A stretch of DNA of 64,000 bases from Sipunculus nudus (lineage: Eukaryota > Annelida > Sipuncula > Golfingiida > Sipunculidae): assembly GCA_026874595.1 (NCBI GenBank), contig CM049313.1:58857159-58921158 (forward strand), read 5' to 3'. A program made the position numbers and the translations under genes. Each line of letters opens with the position of its first letter. The stretch's first letter is position 1. Below are positions 7,736 through 45,010 of this stretch, piece after piece. Under the pieces are notes generated by a model. It worked only from the letters and a program-made list of their open reading frames with translations, did not search any database and had not been told where the DNA came from.

Positions 7736-10405
7736 CTGGAAAATGGAAAAAATACAATGTAAACAAACTCTTATGTAAAGTTTCATAATGACCATAGATA
7801 ATAGAGAATGATCCATGCCTTCAGATGTACCAAAAGCAAAAGTTCAAAACACAGCATAATACAGTTAAAATGTAGTCAACAGTCATGTCAGTGGGGTAAT
7901 ACTGTAGTCAACAGTCATGTCAGTGGGGTATAACTGTAGTCAACAGTCATGTCAGTGGGGTATTACTGTAGTCAACAATCATGTCAGTGGGGTATTACTG
8001 TAGTCAACAGTCATATCAGCAGGGCTTCACAGTGAGCAACAGTCATGATAGCAGAGCTTCACAGTAATCTTCAGGCAGCAGTGTTTCACTGAAGTTAACA
8101 ATCATGTCAGTAAGGCTTTACAGTGGTAAACAGTCATGTCAGCAGGGATTTACTGTAGTCAAACTAAGTTACCTGGTTTACAAAGCAATTTTTGCAAGGT
8201 TTCACTGAAGGTTTGGATTTCACTACTGTTAAATTTTTTGGTTTTGTGAGTCAGCCTTGACTGTACCTTCTTGCTCAGCTGCTGCCACAGCCTGCTGTAC
8301 CCTTGCTGAGGCTGGCATCATCTTCCCTGTCCTCTGAGTCAGTATTGCTACCATCCCGCTGGCATTAGACGCTGTCTGCTGGCACAGGTACTTACAACAG
8401 TCTACAGTCTGGAAGAACCTCCTGTGAAAACACAACAATCACATCATCAACAACACATAGCCGTTGTCTTACTGATGGCCTGATTTCAAAATTAGGTACA
8501 TATGAACAGTAGATAATTAATCTTAACTTAGATTCTTAAAGAAGTGATGCAACTGTTGGTACAGTACAAGTTTCCTTTTATAGACAGCTGCAGTAATCCC
8601 ACTGGTCAAAGATCAAATCACAAGCTAAAAACAGGTTTGTTTAGTGTGTTTGCTTGGAGTTGATATCCCCTTGATAGCGTTTCCACTTACATTTACAACT
8701 GATAAAGTGATTAATTAAGACTGATTCAGATTTAGGAAAAAAGTTATATATTTCAGTCTCACCAGGCTTCAATGTCTTTCTTTTTCAAGTTCCTCTGAGG
8801 GGCAGTGGAAGCTTTCTCATGATGTTTCTGTGCACGGATGTATCTGAAATGATAAATGTAATGCTGAACAATGAGGCAGAGGTTATATATTTGCAACTAA
8901 CCATCACTGCAGGGTATGTTTTATTACTATCGAATCAAAGCTACCAAATTAACAAGTAGAATTAAATTCAACTAAACAATCTACACCCAATGGTGAACCA
9001 AGATAAAAGTAAATTGGTAAAATGTGAGGTTGTATGTTGTTAACACACCATCAGGGTATGTTTTATTATTTTTAAATCAAAACCACTACAGCTAAAAGAA
9101 GATTATTATTCTATTCAATCATATATTTTAAATGGTGAACCAATAAAAGAAAATGTGTATAAAGTAGGTAGCACGACATAAACAGTAAAGTGTATGTTTG
9201 CCAAGAAACTAAGATATCAATAAACAGATATGTGTAAACCAAACATTAAACCTAACCCAGTTAAAAATCAAATTTATTTCAGCAGAGAACAAAATTCTGA
9301 TATAGTAACAATGTCACAAGCTCTGTTAGAATGATCCTCACAACATTTTACAGAAATAAAGATATAAAAAAAATGCGGTAATAATAATAAGTAAAAATAA
9401 GATAAGAATTAGCATTTTATCAACAGGGCCAGTTTGTGAAATAATCTTTGAAATTTAATAGATGTCCTTTGATAAAAGTGTCAGGTTGTATCAGTCAGCT
9501 AAAAAATATAGTATATATACAATAACTCAGATACTATAACAATATATATGGAGAATATCAGGTAGAGGACAGGTTGATGAACAGTCAAGTCCACATACCT
9601 GTTACCTCTATGAAACTCCCCCTCCAGCCACCTGATTGCCTCTCTTGCTCCGGGACTCTCCTTCTTTAGGTGGTCAAGATGATCAATCACTGAAAAACAA
9701 GTCAACTTTTATTGAAGTCCCAGCAACATCGTAACAAGATTCTATGCATCCTAACTTGAACTGATTGGCTTTTGCTTGCAGTTCCTCATGATGGCCTTTT
9801 ACAGAAACACTGGACCCCACTGGAAAGAGCAATAAATACTTGTTTTTTTTTCTAAATTATGATCATTACAAATTCATGATACAACATATGCCCATTGATC
9901 TTTTAGCCCTGTTCATATTAATATCATATATTTAAACACCAAACACATAGGAATACACACAGACAGACATACAAACATGGAATCTTTCAAATAAGACACT
10001 AGCAGACATTGTTTTCTGCCAGTAAAACTGGAACAATCATTTTTGGAGAATTTACAAGCCTTTGAAAATACATAACACAGAACCACCTCAAATAGAAATA
10101 CATGGAGGTTCTCCTATATAAATACCTCTGCTGCTGTTTGTGTGTGTGTGTGTTTATGCTTGAATCCCTCGTTACCTGCCAGAGGGATGATGATGATGAA
10201 GCGAGAGCTGACGACCAGCTGCCGCAGCTGATGGAGAGCATGGCAGAGTGTTGTGGCATCAGGGACGAGATACGGAGGCAGGGACAGCTGCTGGGAGGCC
10301 TGTAACGATCCCTCTAGCTGATTCACCTCCGCCTGAAGACGAAGCTGGGCCATGTCTCGCATAAGCTGGTTCCTACGAGCTTCTGTGTCCGCCTGGATAT
10401 AAAAA

Positions 10406-10500
<95 letters not shown>

Positions 10501-10714
10501 TAATATATATATATATCAACTTACTACATTAAAGTTCAATACATTACAGTCAAAGTGTGCTCTACAGTGCAGGGGAGCATAAATACTATACCATAGTTAG
10601 CTTGATGTCATAATATTGTACAACAGAACTGTTTCAGAAGCTGTGCTAACTTGTCAGGTACACACTATAATGTGTCAAGATACAATAATTTGACATCAAG
10701 CTAACTATATATGG

Positions 10715-10774
<60 letters not shown>

Positions 10775-13700
10775 CATACATGTACACAGATTCTGGTCTG
10801 TAGCTATCCAAAAACACTAAGTACAATATGATAATGGATAGGGGTGACTAGCGATAAAAACACAGTGTAAATATTCAATAAAACTTTTAACAATCAAATA
10901 CCAGCAAGTAACAGTTTTTCATTTTAATTTCTACATGTAGAATTTGTTTAATAAGACACAAATCAATATATAATGCCACAGGACCTTTCTGACCATTTTT
11001 TCCTGAGCCTCATTTATGACCTGATCAACCATTTTTTTCCTGAGCCTCATTTATAACCTGACCAACCATTTTTTCTTGAGCCTCATTTATAACTTGACTG
11101 ACCATTTTTTCTGTGCCTCATTTATAACTTGACCAACCATTTTTTCCTGAGCCTCATTTATAACCTGACTGACCATTTTTTCCTGAGCCTCATTTATGAC
11201 CTGACCAACCATTTTTTCCTGAGCCTCATTTATAACCTGACCAACCATTTTTTCTTGAGCCTCATTTATAACCTGACCAACCATTTTTTCTGTGCCTCAT
11301 TTATAACTTGACCAACCATTTTTTCCTGAGCCTCATTCATAACCTGACTGACCATTTTTTTCCTGAGCCTCATTTTCTAACCTGACCAACCATTTTTTTT
11401 CTGTGCCTCATTTATAACCTGACCAACCATTTTTTCTTGAGCCTCATTTATAACTTGACCAACCATTTTTTTTTTGAGCCTCATTTATAACCTGACTAAC
11501 CATTTTTTCTGTGCCTCATTTATAACTTGACCAACCATTTTTTCCTGAGCCTCATTTATAACCTGACTGACCATTTTTTTCCTGAGCCTCATTTATAACC
11601 TGACCAACCATTTTTTTCTGTGCCTCATTTATAACTTGACTGACCATTTTTTCTGTGCCTCATTTATAACCTGACCAACCATTTTTTCCTGAGCCTCATT
11701 TATAACCTGACTGACCATTTTTTCCTGAGCCTCATTTATGACCTGACCAACCATTTTTTCCTGAGCCTCATTTATAACCTGACAAACCATTTTTTCTTGA
11801 GCCTCATTTATAACCTGACCAACCATTTTTTCTGTGCCTCATTTATAACTTGACCAACCATTTTTTCCTGAGCCTCATTCATAACCTGACTGACCATTTT
11901 TTTCCTGAGCCTCATTTTCTAACCTGACCAACCATTTTTTTTCTGTGCCTCATTTATAACCTGACCAACCATTTTTTTCTGTGCCTCATTTATAACCTGA
12001 CCAACCATTTTTTCTTGGGCCTCATTTATAACTTGACCAACCATTTTTTCTTGAGCCTCATTTATAACCTGACTAACCATTTTTTCTGTGCCTCATTTAT
12101 AACTTGACCAACCATTTTTTCCTGAGCCTCATTTATAACCTGACTGACCATTTTTTTCCTGAGCCTCATTTATAACCTGACCAACCATTTTTTTCTGTGC
12201 CTCATTTATAACCTGACCAACCATTTTTTTCTGTGCCTCATTTATAACATGACCAACCATTTTTTCTTGAGCTTCATTTATAACTTGACCAACCATTTTT
12301 TCCTGAGCCTCATTTATAACCTGACTGACCATTTTGTTCCTGAGCCTCATTTATAACCTGACCAACCATTTTTTCTGTGCCTCATTTATAACCTGACCAA
12401 CCATTTTTTCCTGAGCCTCATTTATAACCTGACCAACCATTTTTTCTTGAGCTTCATTTATAACTTGACCAACCATTTTTTCCTTAGCCTCATTTATAAC
12501 TTGACTGACATTTTTTTCCTGAGCCTCATTTATAACCTGACCAACCATTTTTTTCTGTGCCTCATTTATAACCTGACCAACCATTTTTTTCTGTGCCTCA
12601 TTTATAACCTGACCAACCATTTTTTTCTGTGCCTCATTTATAACCTGACCAACCATTTTTTTCTGTGCCTCATTTATAACCTGACCAACCATTTTTTTCT
12701 GTGCCTCATTTATAACCTGACTGACCATTTTTTTCTGTGCTTCCTGGACTTCTTGGTTCTGCTGGTTGTCCAGGGGACTGTAGAACATGCCTTTCTCTGC
12801 ATCAAACATGAAGTTGATTTCTCGCATGGAGCTGAGAAAATATCCAAACTTACGCAAAGAACACACTCGTATCACAGCCTGCAACAGAAAGTAACCATAG
12901 TCAAATTTTACTAAAAATTTTAGTTCCACCCATTCTGCCTAATTTAGTACAAATTTTTGCATATTTTCCCTCTGAATAATCAAACTGTTATATGTTGCAC
13001 CTGAAATTGATTTTCAATCAAACTATAGAGTAACTGAGCCTGCCTACAAAAGATTCAAAATTCTACCAAAACTGTAGCAATCAGGAATCTATCTTTTGAT
13101 AAATTTCTAATCCTTTTTATATTTCCTGTCTAAAAACTATAAAGCTTCAACAGAAACCTTTAACTAAATTTATTAACAAAGTCGCAAAAAAAATAGTCAG
13201 ACTTTTTTACTCACAACATCTGTTACACAAATAATACAGCAATTTGAGGTTTCCCACATGGATCTTACTATATCATTATTAAACGATACCTGTTGTTGTT
13301 TGTCCAACTTGTGTCTATTTAAACTGGTGAATTCTAGTGTTTTGTAGACATCATTCAAGGGCAGGAAATGCTGCAGGTGCCAATCTTCCTGGAGGGGCGG
13401 AGCTTTGAGTGGGCTGTTGTCTTGACTGCAACAGCTCTGAACAATCTCAAGGACCTCCTGGTCACGGCAATACTCTGATGAAAAAGAGAATTCATGGAGT
13501 CTTAACAGAGGTATGGTTTACAATATATAAAGAGAACCAGACACAAACAAGGGGATAATTTATTTAACTTGCATTAATGGATAAAAAGAAGTTTATTTTT
13601 TATGTAATCCTGAAATATAGATTTTTATATGAAAATATGAAAAACAAAGAACATTTACCACATTAACAATTTTAAAATATTATCATAAGATAATATATTA

Positions 13701-16700: not shown

Positions 16701-19700
16701 CAAAGTTAAATATCATACCAGAATCATCAGATGTCTCTCTATCTATACACTGACAATAAAAGACTGTATAACAGAAAGTCTGATAGTTTACTAGAAACCT
16801 CTAGCACTTAAAATAGTCAGCCGCCCATTCCATGTAACATGAAAGATAATTGGCCAGAAATCAGTTAACTGGCATATGATTGGCTAAATACTGCATGATC
16901 AAACCAATGGGAGGGGCTTAATTAAAGTTTCATTAATGATTTCTGAAGCCTGGAGGTAATGGCATGATGTAACTAAACTTACCAATTCTCCATAAATTGT
17001 AGTTTCAATAATGGATGGAGTAGGTCACCAATGACCATGCCATATTGAGGAAACCCAGTGGTGAAAGGATATAGCACAGTCACTGGTAACCTACTTTTAG
17101 TCAACGTGTTGAAACATGATAGAACTCCAGAAAGAGAGAACAGCAATGATTTGGAATCTGAATTATAATTATACTCATATGTATGGTATCAAGTACTACT
17201 CTACCTGTTAAGTGGGTTCAAAAGAACATCTCTGGCCTGGTAACCATTGGTTGTTCTTTGTGAGCCATCTTCATTCCTGTCTTGTGCACCACCAAGTGAA
17301 AATCCTGAAAATAATATCATAAATTTTCCATACTGAACTGCTGTTCAGATATTCTACCAGTTGATAATTCATTCAGAGAGCGACAATTCATTTTTTGAGC
17401 TATACAGTTAGTGTATACAAGTGGAGGCAGACATGTGATTTTGTGCATGTGCATCTGAACATGTGAGTTTTTTGGCTGACCAGGAGATTGTTCTCACGGT
17501 CACACTTGCTAAATGCTGACTTGCAGTGTGTGTGTATGAATATATGCCTTTACGTGTGTGTATATACTTGGCCTTAGTTCCTGACTGACCCTGAGGTTGT
17601 GCTCACTGTCACTTTCACTAAATTCTGACAAGTTGCATGTGTGTGTTCATGCCTGTATATGTGTGTGTGTTTACCTGGCCTGAGTTCTTGGTTGACCATG
17701 AAGTTGTTCTCATTGTAATTCTCGCTAAATTATTACTTGCTGTGTGTGTGTGTTTATGCTGTGTGTGTGTGTTTATGCCTCTATATGTGTGTGTTTATGC
17801 CTGTATATGCATGTGTTTACCTGGCCTGAGTTCCTGACTGACCATGAGGTTGCCCTCAGTGTCATTTTTACTTGATTCTGACGTGTGTGTGTGTTCATGC
17901 CTGTATATGTATGTGTGTTAACCTGGCCCGAGTTCCTGGCTGACCATGAGGTTGCCCTCAGTGTCATTTTCACTGGATTCTGACTTGTGTGTGTGTGTGT
18001 GTGTGTGTGTTCATGCCTGTATATGTGTGTGTGTTTACCTGGCCTGAGTTCCTGAATGACCATGAGGTTGCCCTCAGTGTCATTTTTACTTGATTCTGAC
18101 GTGTGTGTGTGTTCATGCCTGTATATGTGTGTGTGTTTACCTGGCCCGAGTTCATGACTGACCATGAGGTTGCCCTCAGTGTGTTTTTCACTGGATTCTG
18201 ACGTGTGTGTGTGTTCATGCCTGTATATGTGTGTGTTTACCTGGCCTGAGTTCCTGAATGACCATGAGGTTGCCCTCAGTGTCATTTTCACTGGATTCTG
18301 ACGTGTGTGTGTGTTCATGCTTGTATATGTGTGTGTGTTTACCTGGCCTGAGTTCCTGGCTGACCATGAGGTTGTCTTCGCTGTCACTCTCGCTGGATTC
18401 TGATTCGTTCAGGTAATGTGCCACATCTTCATCTGAGTCACTCTCTGATATGTCCACGTGATCCTCACCTGGGAATACATGGCACTGTAGCAGTTAACAA
18501 AGAATTTAGTAAATAACTAAGTAAATTGGATAGTTCCAGAATATACTAGAAACCAGAATGGCTTTGTTTATGCAGATATATGTCTCCCCCTTAAGGGGCG
18601 ATCCCAAAAAATTAGAGGTGAAATATACACTATATCAAATAATGATTCTATATTTCAGCAGATTTGACTTAAAGGGTCTAGGTCTTCCCTTTTCGAACTC
18701 CAATGAGATTTTGGCAGAAAGAACTGGTGCGTCAAATTCGAAGAAATAACCTTCAGTACTTCCAAACATGGGGGGGGGTCACAATAATCCTAGAATTGCA
18801 TAAATTTGACCTTAAAGATCAAGGTCAAGGTCACTGGATAATGAACTCTTTTGAGATTTTGTTAGGAACAATGAGCATTTACAATTTTGGAGGAAATATG
18901 CAGCCCTTCAAAATTTAAAGCTTTCACAAGACGATAACTATAATTGGGCCGGTTCGACCTTGAAGATTCTGGTCAAGAACACAGGGTTTCGAACTCTGCA
19001 GAGAACTTGGTAAGAACAGCTGGTGTACCAAAGTTGTTGGACAAAATGAAAAATACTTCAAAAGTTATGAGGTTAACAAGAATTTCACATTTCTGCAGAT
19101 TTGTCCTAGAAAATGAAGGTCAAGGTCACCGAACCTGTCCAAGATTTTGGGATGAACAATGAATATTTAAGATTTTGACAGAAAATATGCAGCCCTTCAA
19201 AAGTTACAGCTTTCACAAGATATCCTAAAGATGACAACTGACTACAGACAATGGCACCGTGACAACATTACTCCCCTGGCGGAGGGTGGTGGGGGGGCGT
19301 TGGGGGAGAGACAAAAACACTAATTGTCAGCATATTTAAACTAGAATACGGGTAGGTGACAAGCAACTACGTGTATCCGCCTAAATCAGAGTGGAACGGG
19401 TGAAGTGAGGCATGGATTGAGTGGCAAGGGGAAATAGAGTGTTGCATATTAGCATGGATGTCTGCAGCCAAATTGTGTATGTAGGTTGCCCCCCCTACCA
19501 CAAAATCCAGAAAGCCGTCCAAGTTGTATACATATGCAAAATTTAAGGCAGATAAGTCAAACCACTACATGTATATGAGTGATTTTAGCCCGTGTCAGAC
19601 AAACAGATGGACGCAAAAATGGTTGCAGGTGACGCCACCAGTTTTGCGTATGATAAAGAGCTATGTGAGAACTATACACATGCAAAACTTTGGCTCAATC

Positions 19701-34700: not shown

Positions 34701-37700
34701 AGTCAAATGGCAAAGATAAGAGGGCTGTTGAAAGGGTAGTGTGATTTATTCACATGATTATAACATCAAACAGACAAGACAAATCTGAGACATGGAAACG
34801 GTCAAGTTATAAAGTCAATTTGATGGATCACCTTTCTGTTGTGTTTCATGAGCTGGATGACATCATAATAAACCTTCCTCCACAGAAGTTCCTCTGCTTT
34901 CTTGCCATATTCCAGAGGATCGTAAAACATGATTCTTTCACAGTAATCCTGGAGTCTGCAAATGCAATCGTAAATATACTGGTAACAATGTATTAACAAA
35001 ATCCTGAAAAAAAAAATCAACATTTCACCCGGCATATATAATATACAATAGGCATAGAGTAAAATATGTCTCGAATATGAGTCTCTGTGATGGCTTTTGT
35101 AAACATATCTAAAGATAATTATATAAATAAATAATAAAACTTTATACTGCATATTTTTTAAACCTTGCATTTATATTTACTTCTGTAAGGTATCCAAACT
35201 TTTGACTACTATAGATGATGAACTATCAAGTAAGGACCTGTGCCAAAAAACTTGCATGGAGTCTTGTCATAACCAGACTGCTTTTATGAACAAAATATGT
35301 GAACAACTTAATTATTTAACCCTGAAAACAATCTTATGGAACAAGTAGTCTGAATTGCTGCTCTTCTTTGGCTGCACCAAGTCATATTGATATTATCCAA
35401 ATATATAGACTCAAATGGACCTATTTTGGATCTAGAAATAGTTACACCAAAATCGTCCTCACTGAGATTAATATACTGCCTTTTTCACACAGCATGAGAC
35501 TGGGGCTCTCATGAGACATGCAGATGTCAGGGCACTCAAAGTCCTACACGGTACTTCTGCAATCACATGCAGTGTAGCTGTTAAGTGGCTAAATTTTGCA
35601 AAACATATACAGAATGTCAGGCAAAAATGTCATCCTGATCCACTGAGCATTGGCCAGTTGTATTGACAAGGGCTCTGCAAATAGGGCTTTACAAGTGCCA
35701 TGTTACTTGAAATTATGTTACTGGTGAGAGATTGTTAAGACCACCTGCTTCTGAGCATGACAGCCTCTGGTAAGAAGACATCTCTGTACGCTTTCTTCTG
35801 TTTCAGGATTTCATCAACCCTCTTGATTGTATCCAGGGCAACCCTGTGGGAAATTGAAAGAAAATATATAAACAGTAATCATATGTTCAAGGATCTTTCA
35901 GTATGTAATTTTCTTATCTTTCAAATTGTTGCCAATTTATTTGCAGTTACACCATATTGTTGCTTACAGACCTGGTGTCATTCCTTCAATCTAAAAGCCA
36001 GCTCAGCAAACTGATCTGACTGATACTGATAAGCTAATAATAATATCATTATTAAACTGAACAAATTACAAATGGCAAAACCCAACTGCAGCATAAAATT
36101 AAAAGCATAGCAAACCGAGAAGTAATTTTAAGAGGTATGAAATACATTATCTGTATACAATAAAGGGTTGGCAGATTTCTGAATGGTAATTACCCAGGTA
36201 ATTACTGATACGGAAAAATACTTTCTACCATGGGTAGAAATGGTGGATAGGGCAGAAACTCTCATGGGAATTAGAAAAAATATATATATATATATATATA
36301 AAATCATTTGTTTAATGGCATAAAAGATAAATAGAAGTATCACTGACATGAAGGTAACAAGTTAGTACCCTTGTAATGTTAAACCATCATCAGGGTTTGT
36401 CAAGCTTAATAGCTGGGCAAAAGGAAACCTGAATTCAGTCATGTATCACACATATCACCCTGCATGCTTCATGGTTTCTAAAACCCTCCAAGTGATATGT
36501 GTTGGTTTTTCTAATTATTCACTTGAGCACAAATTTGTGATTAAATAAATTTAAATGACATGCATCAAAACATATGGGAAACCCTGCTTAGGCTGGCATA
36601 GGTATTAGAAACCCTACTGGGGACATTTTACAAAGAGAGTTATTGTTGATTAACTTATATGTCTCAAGAGCTGTTGCATAACATTATATTTCAGAATGTT
36701 ATATATATCAATCACTAAAAGTAATAGGCATATACTGAACCATCTGTTTTTACCTAGTGCTACACCTGACTCTTCAATTTAATCTGGCTAATACAGTGAA
36801 AGTCATGTACACGGGAGGAAGACCTAAAGACCCAACATGGGAACATGTTTATGTCTATCAAGGTGGGCGGAAAAGAATATGGCAAATGTAAGCTATCTGG
36901 TAATCAACAACTTGCCAAAGCTAACAGACTTAAAATTCATCATGCCACAGCAATGTTCATAACAGATTCAACAAAGAATCAGAGAAAGAACTATACATGT
37001 TGAGTTAATACCAAGGAATTTATTTGGCATGCAGAAAACTCATGTTAAAAACTTCATTTCTTGGTTTAAATTGTAGTTTTTTTTTTAAGTTTTTAATAAC
37101 ATGTTTTTTTATCTTGTTTTCTGACTGGTTATACTTTCATTATTTCTGCATCCACTAATATGTGCCACTTAAATATATTTCAGTCAGACCAGATGAGGTT
37201 TCTAGCCTTCACACCTGTTAGAAAGGTATTTCTACCATTTTTACCCTCGTTTCTACCCATGGTAGGGTAGAAGTACCTTTCTACCGTATTTCAATATGAA
37301 AAAATTATCAATTGATAATCTACATCCACTGTGATGTGCCCGAAAATGATCTCCGTGATTTCATTCAGGATGAAGGTGTGCCAGTATCCGCCATCTGTAA
37401 GGTTTCGCATGATGAAGCGAGGATGCAGTCCTTCCGTATAACCATTAACTCAACAGATCTGGAAAAAGTGATGCAGGGCTCATTTTGGCCAGAAGGAATA
37501 AGTTGTAGAAGATATTTCAGCCGTTTCACTGGTAAACAAAAAGTCAATAATGCTAAATAATACAACTAACATTTTCATGACTTTTTTAACTGTTTGCTCT
37601 TACAATGTAACAGGATTAAAGCGAACTAATAGTCAAGACTTCATAAAGAAAATGTTAGAGAAATATTGGATTGATATTCTGTTCCTCCAGGAAACCTGTC

Positions 37701-40700
37701 TCCTGGAGACGCAGTTGGATCTACTTGGGGACCTGAGTCAGGATTTCATGTTTACTGCTAAATCAGGGGTTGACAGCCAGTTAGACGTGTTGATAGGCCG
37801 CCCCTATGGAGGAGTAGCAATAATGTGGAGTAAGCACTTATCTCATAGAGTTACTCCTGTAGAAACTGGTCAAAAGAGATTATGTGCTGTTCAAGTTATG
37901 GATTCAAACAAGAAATTCCTCATGATATGCTGCTATTTTCCGTGTGACACAAGGACAAACAGTGTGGATGCAGAATTTTTAGAGTGTAAATGCAATCGAG
38001 TCGCTCATGCTAGAAAATACATATGATGCATTTATAATAGGGGGAGACCTTAATATTGTCACAGAAAGACTGAGGGGTAACTGCAAATATCTTAAATTAT
38101 TTGCTGAAAATAATGACTTAGTGTTTGCATGGGACCTCCGACAAACGGTGGCCGAGGATACATATGAGAGCTATGGTGGTTCAGCGAGCTCCATTATTGA
38201 CCATTTCTTAGTTTCTAGTTCTCTAACGGACCACATTGTACATGGATGCGTCGTGCATGAAATAACAAATTTCTCTGATCATAATCCTATTATTTTAAAA
38301 TGGAAAATGATGGATGAAAGATACACGCACAGTGATGACAGGCATTATCATAACAAGATAAGCTGGAGTCGTGCCAAGGATATTGATATAACAAAATATA
38401 AAAGCATTGTGAATACACAAATGAATGAGATCTGTGTTCCTGTTTCTGCAGTATATTGTAGGGATACAATGTGTCATTCAAAAGTTCATAGACAATACTT
38501 GGACAAGTTTTATGATGATATCTGTAATATACTGATTCATTCGACAGAAGCAAGTATCCCTAAGTGCCAGCCTAAACGTCACTGTAAACCATACTGGGAT
38601 AGACATGCACAAAAAGACAAAAATATGGCCCTGTTTTGGCATCGTCTCTGGTTGGAGAATGGCCGTCCAACTGAAGGTGTGGTCGCCGACATCAGGAAAC
38701 GTACGCGTGCAAACTATCACAAATCAGTACAAAAACTGATAAAACATGAGGAAAATCTTCGTTACAAACGGATGGCTGATAAGATATTGGAAAACAAATC
38801 CCGACATCTATGGACAGAGGTAAATAAACTGAAACTAAGAGCTCGATCAGGGGCACCTGTGATTGACAATGCAAATACGGCCTACGACATTGCAGACGTC
38901 TTTAAAAATAAATTTGAGACAATTTATAACTGTAACCCCACAGATAAATCCAAACTTGATGCTACTGAAATGGAGATCATTCGAAGAATAAGGTTTGGTA
39001 TATGCGATTCATCCGCTATCATTACGGCGAAAATGGTACATGAAGCTATAGACATGCTGAAACATGGCAAATCGGATGGCGATATCGGCATGGACACCGA
39101 TAACATCAAACATTCTCCTCCAGTTTGCGCAGTTATGTTATCTTTATTATTTTCAGGAATGCTTACGCATGGTCACATGCCAGAGAATATGTTAGTCTAC
39201 AATTGTGCCAATTCCAAAAAATAAAAATGGTAATCAGTGTTCTAGTAACAATTATAGAGGAATATCGCTTTGTAGTGCAATAACAAAACTGTTTGAAATG
39301 ATAATCTATAATAGGTTTCATGACTATATGAAAACGAGTGATCTGCAGTTCGCCTTTAAAGCAGGGCATTCGACAACTATGTGTGCAACTGTTTTGAAGG
39401 AAGTGGCTATGTATTGCAACTCTAAGGGTAGCGATGTTTATTGTTGTATGGTGGATGCCACAAAAGCTTTTGATCGATTACAAATTGGTAAACTATTCAA
39501 AGTTATATTGAAAAGAGAATTTCCTCCTTGTGTCATTCGAATTTTGTATGAAATGTATAGCAAACAAAGAATAAGCGTGAAGTGGATGAACTGCCATTTG
39601 GTCAGTTTTTCAGCCACAAACGGAGTGCGACAGGGAGGAGTGGTAAGCCCACTCTTATTTAATATGTATCTTGATATTCTTGTCAATGAGCTTAAAAAAG
39701 ATGGAACAGGTTGCCATATTGGACACTTATTCTCTGGATGTCTGGCCTATGCGGACGATCTCACGTAAATAATGAGCCCTTCGGTAAATGGTCTACAGCG
39801 CATGCTAGACAGGTGTGAAATTTTTGGAAAAGAATATGGCGTCAAATACAATGCTGCAAAGACTGTTTGTATAAAATTTACGAGTAAATCTAGTCGCCGT
39901 GATAACACTGAGCGTGAACCAGACCTCACATTGTGCGGAACAAAACTCGAATGGCAGAATAGTGTAAGCTACCTGGGGATAGTCATCAGTGGCGAGATGG
40001 ACGACAAACATGATATTGAGACCAAATGTTGTGACTTCTATAGAAGAGTTGCCTTATGCGCCAATTTTGGAAAACTCCCATGTGAAGTCTTAGGTACATT
40101 ATTTAATGCTTACTGCACCTCGTTTTACGGGTCTCAGTGCTGGGATCTAAATTGTAAAGCCAATGACCAAATTTCAGTAGCGTACAATAAAGGACTGAGG
40201 AGGATATGGCAGCTACTGAGGACTACTCATAGATATGTGGTGTATGGTATAAGTAAGAAGCCAGATCTAAGAACTCAGTTAGAGAATCGTTTTATTAACA
40301 TGTTAAAAAACATGTTGAAATCTAATAACAATTTATTGAAGTTTGCATCTACTCGTGCACTGTCGGATTTGTCGAGTAGTATTGGTAACAATTGTGCATA
40401 TCTAATGGACAAATATAACGTTAGGAAATGTAATATTTGTAGCATAGATAATAGAAATATAAAACATATACTGACAACAACACAGATGTGCATCGCTGAC
40501 GTCGTCCATGAAGCCATTTCTGTGCGCGATGGCTTGGCTGATATACAGACACTAGACTATGCTATGATAACAGCTCTAATTGAAGAGCTGTCAACTGGAA
40601 ATTAACTTTACAGCTGTCCAATAGCCTTTCGCACTGTATTCTTTTCTGTTATTTATTCACTTTATTGCACATTACTTATGTCTGTACATGTAAATGTATG

Positions 40701-43058: not shown

Positions 43059-44080
43059 TCTGCAATGTGTTCTCCTGAAGAGAATTCTGCGTTTGTTGCT
43101 CACATTTTTGTTAAATATCACAACTTTTCCGCTAAACTGTCAGAAATCAACAGAATTTGTATGGTAGTCGCCATGATGATTCCCAAGTCTCGATCATGTG
43201 ACTTTTTCGAGATGTAGACTGGTTCTAATGCATCATGAACACTATTTCAATAATGTCTTTTTATCCATTTATCAATAACTGGTTGAAGCCCACGGCTGCA
43301 TCTCTAATACCAAGAATGTTGTTCCAAAAGAAAAAACACACCGGTATGATTTTTTTTTCATTTTGAACTCCATAGTTTCCAAAATAATATGCATGTATGG
43401 GCATGAAGGGTATTTAATTTCTTGTCTGTTGACTTTACATAAATATCGAATTTGTATGTACCTTTTCCTCGTAAACAGTGCTGATATCACGAACAGTTAA
43501 ACTACAATATTTAATTTATAAACTGCGGTAACAGGCAAGAGGCAGCCGCTTTTGGTAAATTGGCCGTTTTGAACCATGAGCGATATGGTCATTGCCCTTT
43601 GAACTATGACCTGTCCTGAGTTCATGTTTACATCCTTGAAGTCATGGTAGAAACAACCACGTGACTGAAAATGTACCCGTGTAGGTACATTTGCCAGGGA
43701 GACAGCAGCTCAGGCACCAAGACCTAATTCTTGGATAAATTATCAGCTTGTACACATTTTTACCGAACATTGCATTGAGTGTTCCCGTTCTACGAAAGAC
43801 CGTAAAATAAGTGTGGGAAGTCCATTAATAAGTGGTTGGCACCTTCACTCCAAAGGCATTGCTATTAATTATTGATTTTTTTGCATGCAAGGCCACGCCA
43901 TGGTCAACTCATAGACAGATGCGGCGCTGGGATCAAATGTCCTTGGCTGAGTACAACTGGTGCTTTATAAAACCAGAGCCCGTTCTGAAGAGTTCATATC
44001 GCATCGATCGGTGGAGGTGGACGCACGCAGTTTGAGTGGAAAGTGTAATATAGAGACATAAAGAAGACGATAAAATAAAA
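43059..44080. promoter_or_regulatory. Intergenic bidirectional promoter region, SMG5 / CH25H-like
   Basis: About 1.0 kb separates the divergent start codons. TCATGTGA at 43194-43201 and CACGTGAC at 43658-43665 are E-box/M-box-like sites that could bind bHLH-ZIP factors. The TATA box at 43966 serves the rightward gene. No TATA was seen on the SMG5 side. Assigning both promoters here is inference from geometry. Confidence 0.6.
43966..43972 (+). promoter_or_regulatory. TATA box of the CH25H-like gene
   Basis: TATAAAA in the context TGCTTTATAAAACCAG, 109 bp before the ATG. It predicts a start site near 43995 and a ~85-nt unspliced 5' leader. Confidence 0.7.
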
Positions 44081-45010
44081 ATGGCACAAAACGACACTTC
44101 GCTATTTGGGCAAGGAGAGAACTGGAGGGCTTTGAAGCCGTTATGGGACTTGAGACTGGGCTACGAACGTTATTTGAGTTCGCCGCTTTTCCCGATTCTG
44201 TTGTCAGTGACCTATTATTTCGCGAGCATGATTCCTTTTATGATCATAGATCTTTATGGTAAACACTGGAAATGGATCCAACGTTACAAGATCCAGCCGA
44301 AGAAAGACGTCACGTGGGCGCAGGTGAAAAACGCGATCTTGCTTACGGTGTGGAATCATCTTGTGTATATTTTGCCTATATCCATTGCTCAGTGGATCTG
44401 GACACCGCCAACGCATATAGACTTGATAGCCCCGACATTAGCAGAATTTTTTGGACACATGTTTGGGGCGCTTGCGGTGTTTGATTTTGAGTATTGGGTT
44501 TGGCACGCGCTCCATCACAAAATACGGTTCCTGTACCGCCACTGTCACGCGGTTCACCATGAGTACATGAGTCCGAGCAGCTGGGTTACTCAGTACCTTC
44601 ACCCGTGGGAACTCATCTCCGTGGGCGTTTTCACGACGACCAGCCCGTGGATCTTCAATGCTCACCCTCTCACGCAGTGGGCGTTCATGATCTTCAGTAT
44701 CACCATCAGTGTTGAAGCTCACATCGGGTTTGATCTACCCGGATTCCCCCACCATTGGTTACCTTTCTGGGGCGGCGCGCCTAAACACGATATGCATCAC
44801 CAGAGACCGCTTTCGAACTTCGAGCCATTCTTCCGCTGGTGGGACTACTTGTTCGGCTGGGACTGTCCTGGGCAGCTAGCTGGAGGATACAGGCCAAAAT
44901 CACTGGAAGAATATGATAGAAAAGTAAAGCAGCAGAGAGAGGCAGCCAGGGAACGCCGACTCAAAGCCAAGGCCATCCGCGAGGCGAAAGAACAGGCGAA
45001 ACAAGATTAG
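44081..45010 (+). CDS. Cholesterol 25-hydroxylase-like membrane sterol/fatty-acid hydroxylase
   Basis: Intact, intronless, 309 residues (human CH25H is 272). Member of the fatty-acid-hydroxylase superfamily: di-iron ER membrane enzymes that hydroxylate sterols or lipids. The histidine clusters are H142-A-L-H-H146, H156-A-V-H-H160 and H236-D-M-H-H240, with H214 as a further candidate ligand. Hydrophobic segments lie at about 35-58, 84-107, 121-141 and 178-212. The C-terminus (about 275-309) is an extra Lys/Arg/Glu/Ala-rich helix. The start has a good context (AAAATGG). It is more GC-rich than its surroundings and diverges from SMG5. Vertebrate CH25H is likewise single-exon. Substrate is not determinable; it could act on another sterol or alkylglycerol. 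Confidence 0.9.
   Translation: MAQNDTSLFGQGENWRALKPLWDLRLGYERYLSSPLFPILLSVTYYFASMIPFMIIDLYGKHWKWIQRYKIQPKKDVTWAQVKNAILLTVWNHLVYILPISIAQWIWTPPTHIDLIAPTLAEFFGHMFGALAVFDFEYWVWHALHHKIRFLYRHCHAVHHEYMSPSSWVTQYLHPWELISVGVFTTTSPWIFNAHPLTQWAFMIFSITISVEAHIGFDLPGFPHHWLPFWGGAPKHDMHHQRPLSNFEPFFRWWDYLFGWDCPGQLAGGYRPKSLEEYDRKVKQQREAARERRLKAKAIREAKEQAKQD

Follow-up and report, generated by a model that had tools for sequence, protein, structure and literature searches.

The window analysed is a 64,000-nucleotide stretch of the genome of Sipunculus nudus (C8:58857159-58921158, in an assembly of 1,426,538,692 bases in 153 contigs). Its minus strand carries the gene SMG5, as a preliminary description of this DNA had claimed: the exon ADTEARRNQLMRDM...IIIIP has PDB 2hwy (Protein SMG5) as its top match (E 3.3e-07, the alignment spanning query residues 39-72), and exon-sized blocks running from 35848 to 7689 are collinear, exon by exon, with human SMG5, the query being an approximate version of the human protein. 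Plus-strand matches were dropped from this search, and a few weak minus-strand ones (E >3) lay off the gene order. The PIN-domain exon and the linker preceding it both match SMG5, and a query built from three SMG5 exons had the present locus as its sole match in the genome at E < 0.01. This three-exon query detected no SMG5 retrocopy with a spliced join in the genome itself (best E 0.054 beyond the three SMG5 exons), and a search for SMG5 in the genome-contig and viral-contig collections found no relative. When five exon ORFs were compared with Pfam, the one bearing the repeat described below matched 24 unrelated families, with MgtE_N alone above its cut-off (28.2 bits vs 25.9); these were taken as composition matches, because most of them fall on the repeat. 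Elsewhere in the window, frames on the plus strand at 37300-40602 have, by eye, the appearance of a non-LTR retroelement, with segments of both endonuclease and reverse transcriptase. A 318-aa open frame at 44054-45007, also on the plus strand, resembles by eye a fatty-acid or sterol hydroxylase.

One SMG5 intron begins with a long array of tandem repeats (array 1), whose features and flanking exons are as follows.

12726..12878, minus strand: SMG5 exon adjoining array 1, placed by homology to human SMG5
12717..12752, minus strand: exon copy of the 36-bp unit (last 27 nt unit-like, first 9 not)
12717..12728, minus strand: a pair of phase-0 sites, either of which may be the authentic donor (ATG|GTCAGT, with the intron starting at 12725, or CAG|GTTATA, with it starting at 12716)
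10988..12716, minus strand: array 1, in 48 units each about 36 bp long (consensus in the exon frame VINEAQEKMVGQ), with two kinds of donor-like site
12393..12716, minus strand: units 1-9, which continue the exon's frame (the first five are identical)
12353-12351, minus strand: first stop on reading through from the exon, after the 35-bp unit 10
11243..11977, minus strand: higher-order repeat, in which 11785-11977 (193 bp) is exactly duplicated 542 bp further on
10176..10392, minus strand: next SMG5 exon (ADTEARRNQLMRDM..., phase 0), with acceptor ATATCCAG|GCGGAC and SMG5 homology

The exon preceding the array is intact, with CTGTTGCAG|GCTGTG as its acceptor; it encodes AVIRVCS...QEAQKKM if the donor is ATG|GTCAGT, and use of CAG|GTTATA extends it to 12717. 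Two long AT dinucleotide runs (10408-10516 and 10706-10772) lie in the array-1 intron, the first of which stops about 15 bp before the next exon. A later SMG5 intron contains a 32-bp minisatellite of about nine copies (7871-8162).

The existence of array 1 is confirmed: a single diverged copy at the exon precedes 48 tandem units, each about 36 bp long, in agreement with the roughly 49 copies first proposed, and TRF reports period 36 with 48.4 copies at 10992-12737 (score 2700). The units stand head to tail and their length lies within the 10-100 bp of minisatellites (VNTRs), as seen in one assembly. The parse yielded 46 entries (29 of 36 bp, 7 of 35, 7 of 37, 2 of 74 and one cut at 33); each 74-bp entry was split into a 38-bp and a 36-bp unit, giving 48 unit starts and a final series of 31 units of 36 bp, 7 of 35, 7 of 37, 2 of 38 and a truncated unit at the end. 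Sixteen of the 48 units are thus off the 36-bp period (the cut-short last unit excluded), and the bases gained or lost are within the main A run or next to it, apart from a single additional base at another position in both 38-bp units. In the exon copy, the first 9 nt (GAAGTCCAG) are unlike those of the unit (GTTATAAAT) while the remaining 27 nt resemble the unit, so that the unit consists of the exon end plus the start of the intron. The earlier statement that the intron start had become a potential coding repeat therefore told half the story. The two higher-order copies carry matching odd-length units in matching order; length changes have thus been copied along with the array, which makes random base-call errors an improbable source of the indels. 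Genome-wide (1.43 Gb), the exact 17-mer CAGGTTATAAATGAGGC has 28 occurrences, every one in array 1. By eye, the sense strand of the array is purine-rich ahead of each CAG. Recursive splicing at the AG|GT sites was considered and set aside since the unit has, by eye, no pyrimidine tract, as was a G-quadruplex reading, the sense unit being A-rich.

Nearly every unit of array 1 contains two donor candidates, 9 nt apart. The junction CAG|GTTATA had been said to be present in each unit, which is too strong: in its exact form it starts 28 of the 48, including all of the first six, the others beginning with CAA|GTTATA (12), CAG|GTCATA (3), CAG|GTTAGA (2), CAG|GTTATG (2) or CAT|GTTATA (1). The second candidate has the form ATG|GTCAGT once at the exon and nine times in the array, and the form ATG|GTTGGT 33 times. 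Five measures bear on which site is the authentic donor of the exon. An approximate human donor matrix favours ATG|GTCAGT over CAG|GTTATA (2.43 vs -1.09), as does a matrix derived from 100 exon ends of the same genome (3.28 vs 0.57, with 1.58 for ATG|GTTGGT). The latter matrix was learned by EM, the consensus AAG|GTAAGT being reached from 12/12 random starts, and its control median, taken over the 90/100 exon ends whose best site exceeds 0, is 3.24. When the joined protein is aligned to an approximate version of human SMG5, ATG|GTCAGT scores 286 and CAG|GTTATA 280, with 285 for the ATG join of the following unit. CAG|GTTATA is favoured by U1 duplex energy (-5.6 vs -4.5) and by a matrix built from 15 donors of the gene itself (2.72 vs -0.19). 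The join to ADTEARRNQLMRDM originally put forward is thus supported, with the join 9 nt upstream aligning slightly better, and the units do contain a donor candidate, but CAG|GTTATA is not established as the authentic donor, the evidence being split three measures to two. On these scores the authentic donor would probably be the one at 12725 (ATG|GTCAGT) rather than that at 12716 (CAG|GTTATA). No RNA structure masking the donors was found in 12573-12752 (z-score -0.05).

Reading on from the exon, the frame stays open across nine whole units (about ten had been claimed) and into unit 10, which at 35 bp leads to the stop. It is not the case that every following unit supplies TAA, because the 37 bp of unit 11 bring the frame back, and there are further in-frame stretches later in the array. 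With 16 of 48 units off the period, most of array 1 nonetheless cannot be read as one coding stretch. The variable columns among the 48 units fall on third codon positions of the exon frame in 7/10 cases (hypergeometric P 0.007), unit position 5 counting as variable solely through the two 38-bp units, in each of which one base was left out by hand for the alignment. The synonymous count gives a weaker signal, with 7 of 18 distinct changes synonymous (P 0.035 to 0.10, depending on transition bias), the share being 6/10 for changes present in at least two units and 1/8 for singletons. The third-position skew may point to a past coding phase of array 1, as a hint rather than a proof. AlphaFold2, run in single-sequence mode on the exon plus nine units, predicts one unbroken helix at residues 35-160 (mean pLDDT 75.1, pTM 0.30), so added units would merely lengthen a predicted helix.

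A second array of the same character is found at another exon of SMG5.

17554..18403, minus strand: array 2, units of about 102 bp, each another exon end plus CAG|GTAAAC plus a CA-rich intron start
17305..18342, minus strand: intron mostly filled by array 2

The exon concerned ends in ...SESSESDSEDNLMVSQELRP with the donor CAG|GTAAAC, which scores 4.74 on the genome-derived matrix. Counting that of the exon, the array has eight donors, for which the intron would begin at 18342, 18240, 18140, 18038, 17922, 17820, 17674 and 17567: six CAG|GTAAAC, one CAG|GTTAAC and one CAA|GTATAT. Among the seven extra ones, six are CAG|GT and five repeat the exact 9-mer of the exon, and these copies are therefore as strong as the exon's own donor. 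The next exon starts at 17304 (TTTTCAG|GATTTTCACTTGG), its acceptor having been picked by frame, not homology. Splicing at the first extra donor would lengthen the open frame by 34 codons; at the second to the seventh it would bring in a stop. In array-2 units ACACAC...GTCAG precedes the exon-like sequence, and the 57-nt exon-like parts that follow it could in principle serve as phase 1-1 mini-exons. Array 2 is arguably a better test case than array 1 for donor competition. A 13-mer, ATGGTCAGTCAGG, is common to the exon-end parts of array 1 (12717-12728) and array 2; the two exon ends otherwise differ.

The frequency of such structures was estimated by a scan for direct repeats of an exon end across its donor. 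This identified 2/16 SMG5 donors, the 16 being those that could be placed, not every intron, at both settings used, and, at the same settings, 2/100 (45 bases each side) or 3/100 (60 bases) control exon ends, comprising 50 myosin and 50 kinesin ends from tables of 75 and 126 matches. The controls were placed by the ends of HMM matches, with a donor-like motif nearby in 67/100; duplications may therefore have been missed, and the control rate is a lower bound. One control (L055:409-478) is a genuine two-copy tandem duplication of 35 bp across a myosin donor, GAG|GTAGGG, which is likely to represent an early stage of the array-forming process. Two other controls were set aside: the repeats in L044 are intronic and 219 bp apart, and that in L023 lies inside the exon.

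Taken together, array 1 is probably a minisatellite that arose by tandem duplication across an exon-intron boundary and whose copies are nearly neutral beside a first donor that is still used. A segment comprising the exon end and the first bases of the intron would have been duplicated in tandem, seeding the array, with the original exon end and donor kept on the upstream side, such that everything past the first donor would be spliced out as intron. Later copies, lying behind an intact upstream donor, would be intronic, almost neutral and free to expand, presumably by slippage or unequal exchange. The same process would have acted at a second SMG5 donor (array 2), and a two-copy stage of it is present in the myosin gene; near-neutral growth would thus account for the coexistence in one genome of a two-copy duplication and arrays of about 8 and about 49 copies. 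The presence of an exon end, a donor and an intron start in the units of both arrays supports the duplication reading, as does the clear SMG5 homology kept in the array-1 exon and in the exon that follows; the third-position skew, with its hint of a past coding phase, speaks against it. In most SMG5 mRNA the join would be expected at 12725 or 12716, in the first unit, and in-frame donors close by would be used now and then. In humans, decoys of comparable strength are rarely found less than 150 nt from a donor in use, and decoys at 10% of donor strength can compete (PMC8964760); donors of equal strength at a distance of 36 or 102 nt are therefore not expected to be wholly silent, and some leakage to downstream donors is plausible.

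It is possible, though rather unlikely, that several of the first donors of array 1 are in use, which would yield SMG5 isoforms with 0-9 extra units of 12 residues directly before the PIN domain. The donor sites of units 1-9 are phase 0 with an open extension, the first six unit starts are all CAG|GTTATA, the predicted helix would only be lengthened, and recurrent changes are synonymous more often than singletons. Against this, both downstream sites, ATG|GTTGGT and CAG|GTTATA, are weaker on the genome matrix than the exon's ATG|GTCAGT, and extensions beyond unit 10 run into the stop.

That stop might instead be functional: use of downstream donors would introduce a premature stop and so subject SMG5 mRNA to NMD, as feedback on an NMD factor. 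Such a switch is improbable. Array-1 donors beyond 12353-12351 do include the stop, as do the second to seventh extra donors of array 2 (the first adding in-frame codons), and mRNAs of NMD factors, including SMG5, rise after UPF1 depletion in human cells, with which a stop-bearing isoform would fit as part of a feedback loop; the same report points to features such as long 3'UTRs in these transcripts (PMC3783168), and a neutral array would carry the same stops. It is still less to be expected that the donor arrays form a length-tunable splice rheostat in an NMD gene, in which the number and strength of decoys would set the share of mRNA with helical modules or stops; if true, array length would tune NMD capacity between individuals.

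Very doubtful, too, is a reading in which array 1 is a present or recent long coding repeat and the indels in its A runs are sequencing errors or recent decay. It would agree with the third-position skew and with the position of the length changes, in or beside the main A run except for one base in each 38-bp unit, but the same odd-length units recur in the higher-order copies, and the array is directly followed by a site, AAG|GTCCTG, that scores poorly as a donor (-4.18). An assembly artefact, by false expansion or collapse of a short repeat, is hardly credible: tandem arrays are error-prone and the copy number comes from one assembly, but the contigs are chromosome-scale (80.9 Mb here) and many distinct unit types occur in order.

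Several known systems share some of these properties. In a potato RdRp gene, as at SMG5, splice signals have been duplicated together with the boundary that a tandem duplication spans; there the duplication covers an exon start and gave a new intron (PMC4974935), whereas the SMG5 arrays, of about 49 and about 8 copies, are at donors and have not evidently produced a new intron. TERT VNTR6-1, a minisatellite in intron 6 that shifts splicing, resembles array 1 in unit length (38 bp) and copy number; it lies upstream of exon 7, at a distance of about 3.5 kb, and has been linked to G-quadruplexes (PMC11830802), whereas the unit of array 1 contains the donor itself and the array begins at the exon. 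GYNGYN tandem donors are likewise neighbouring alternative donors, with two of them in one six-base motif (PMC1779574), compared with many, 36 or about 102 bp apart, in SMG5. Intron 5 of dog LHX3 also contains a tandem repeat, with an effect on splicing; its unit is 7 bp, and the effect of repeat contraction is ascribed to intron shortening (PMC3223203). No donor-bearing minisatellite of the present kind and size was found in the literature searched, most subscription papers lying outside its coverage.

If the first donor is always used, array 1 constitutes a natural test of how one donor is picked among dozens of similar ones 36 bp apart. If it is not, a donor-carrying repeat can alter protein length or mRNA fate unit by unit with the frame unbroken. 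The occurrence of three stages in one genome (2 copies, about 8 and about 49) suggests a general way for introns to become filled, namely by duplication of their own exon ends.
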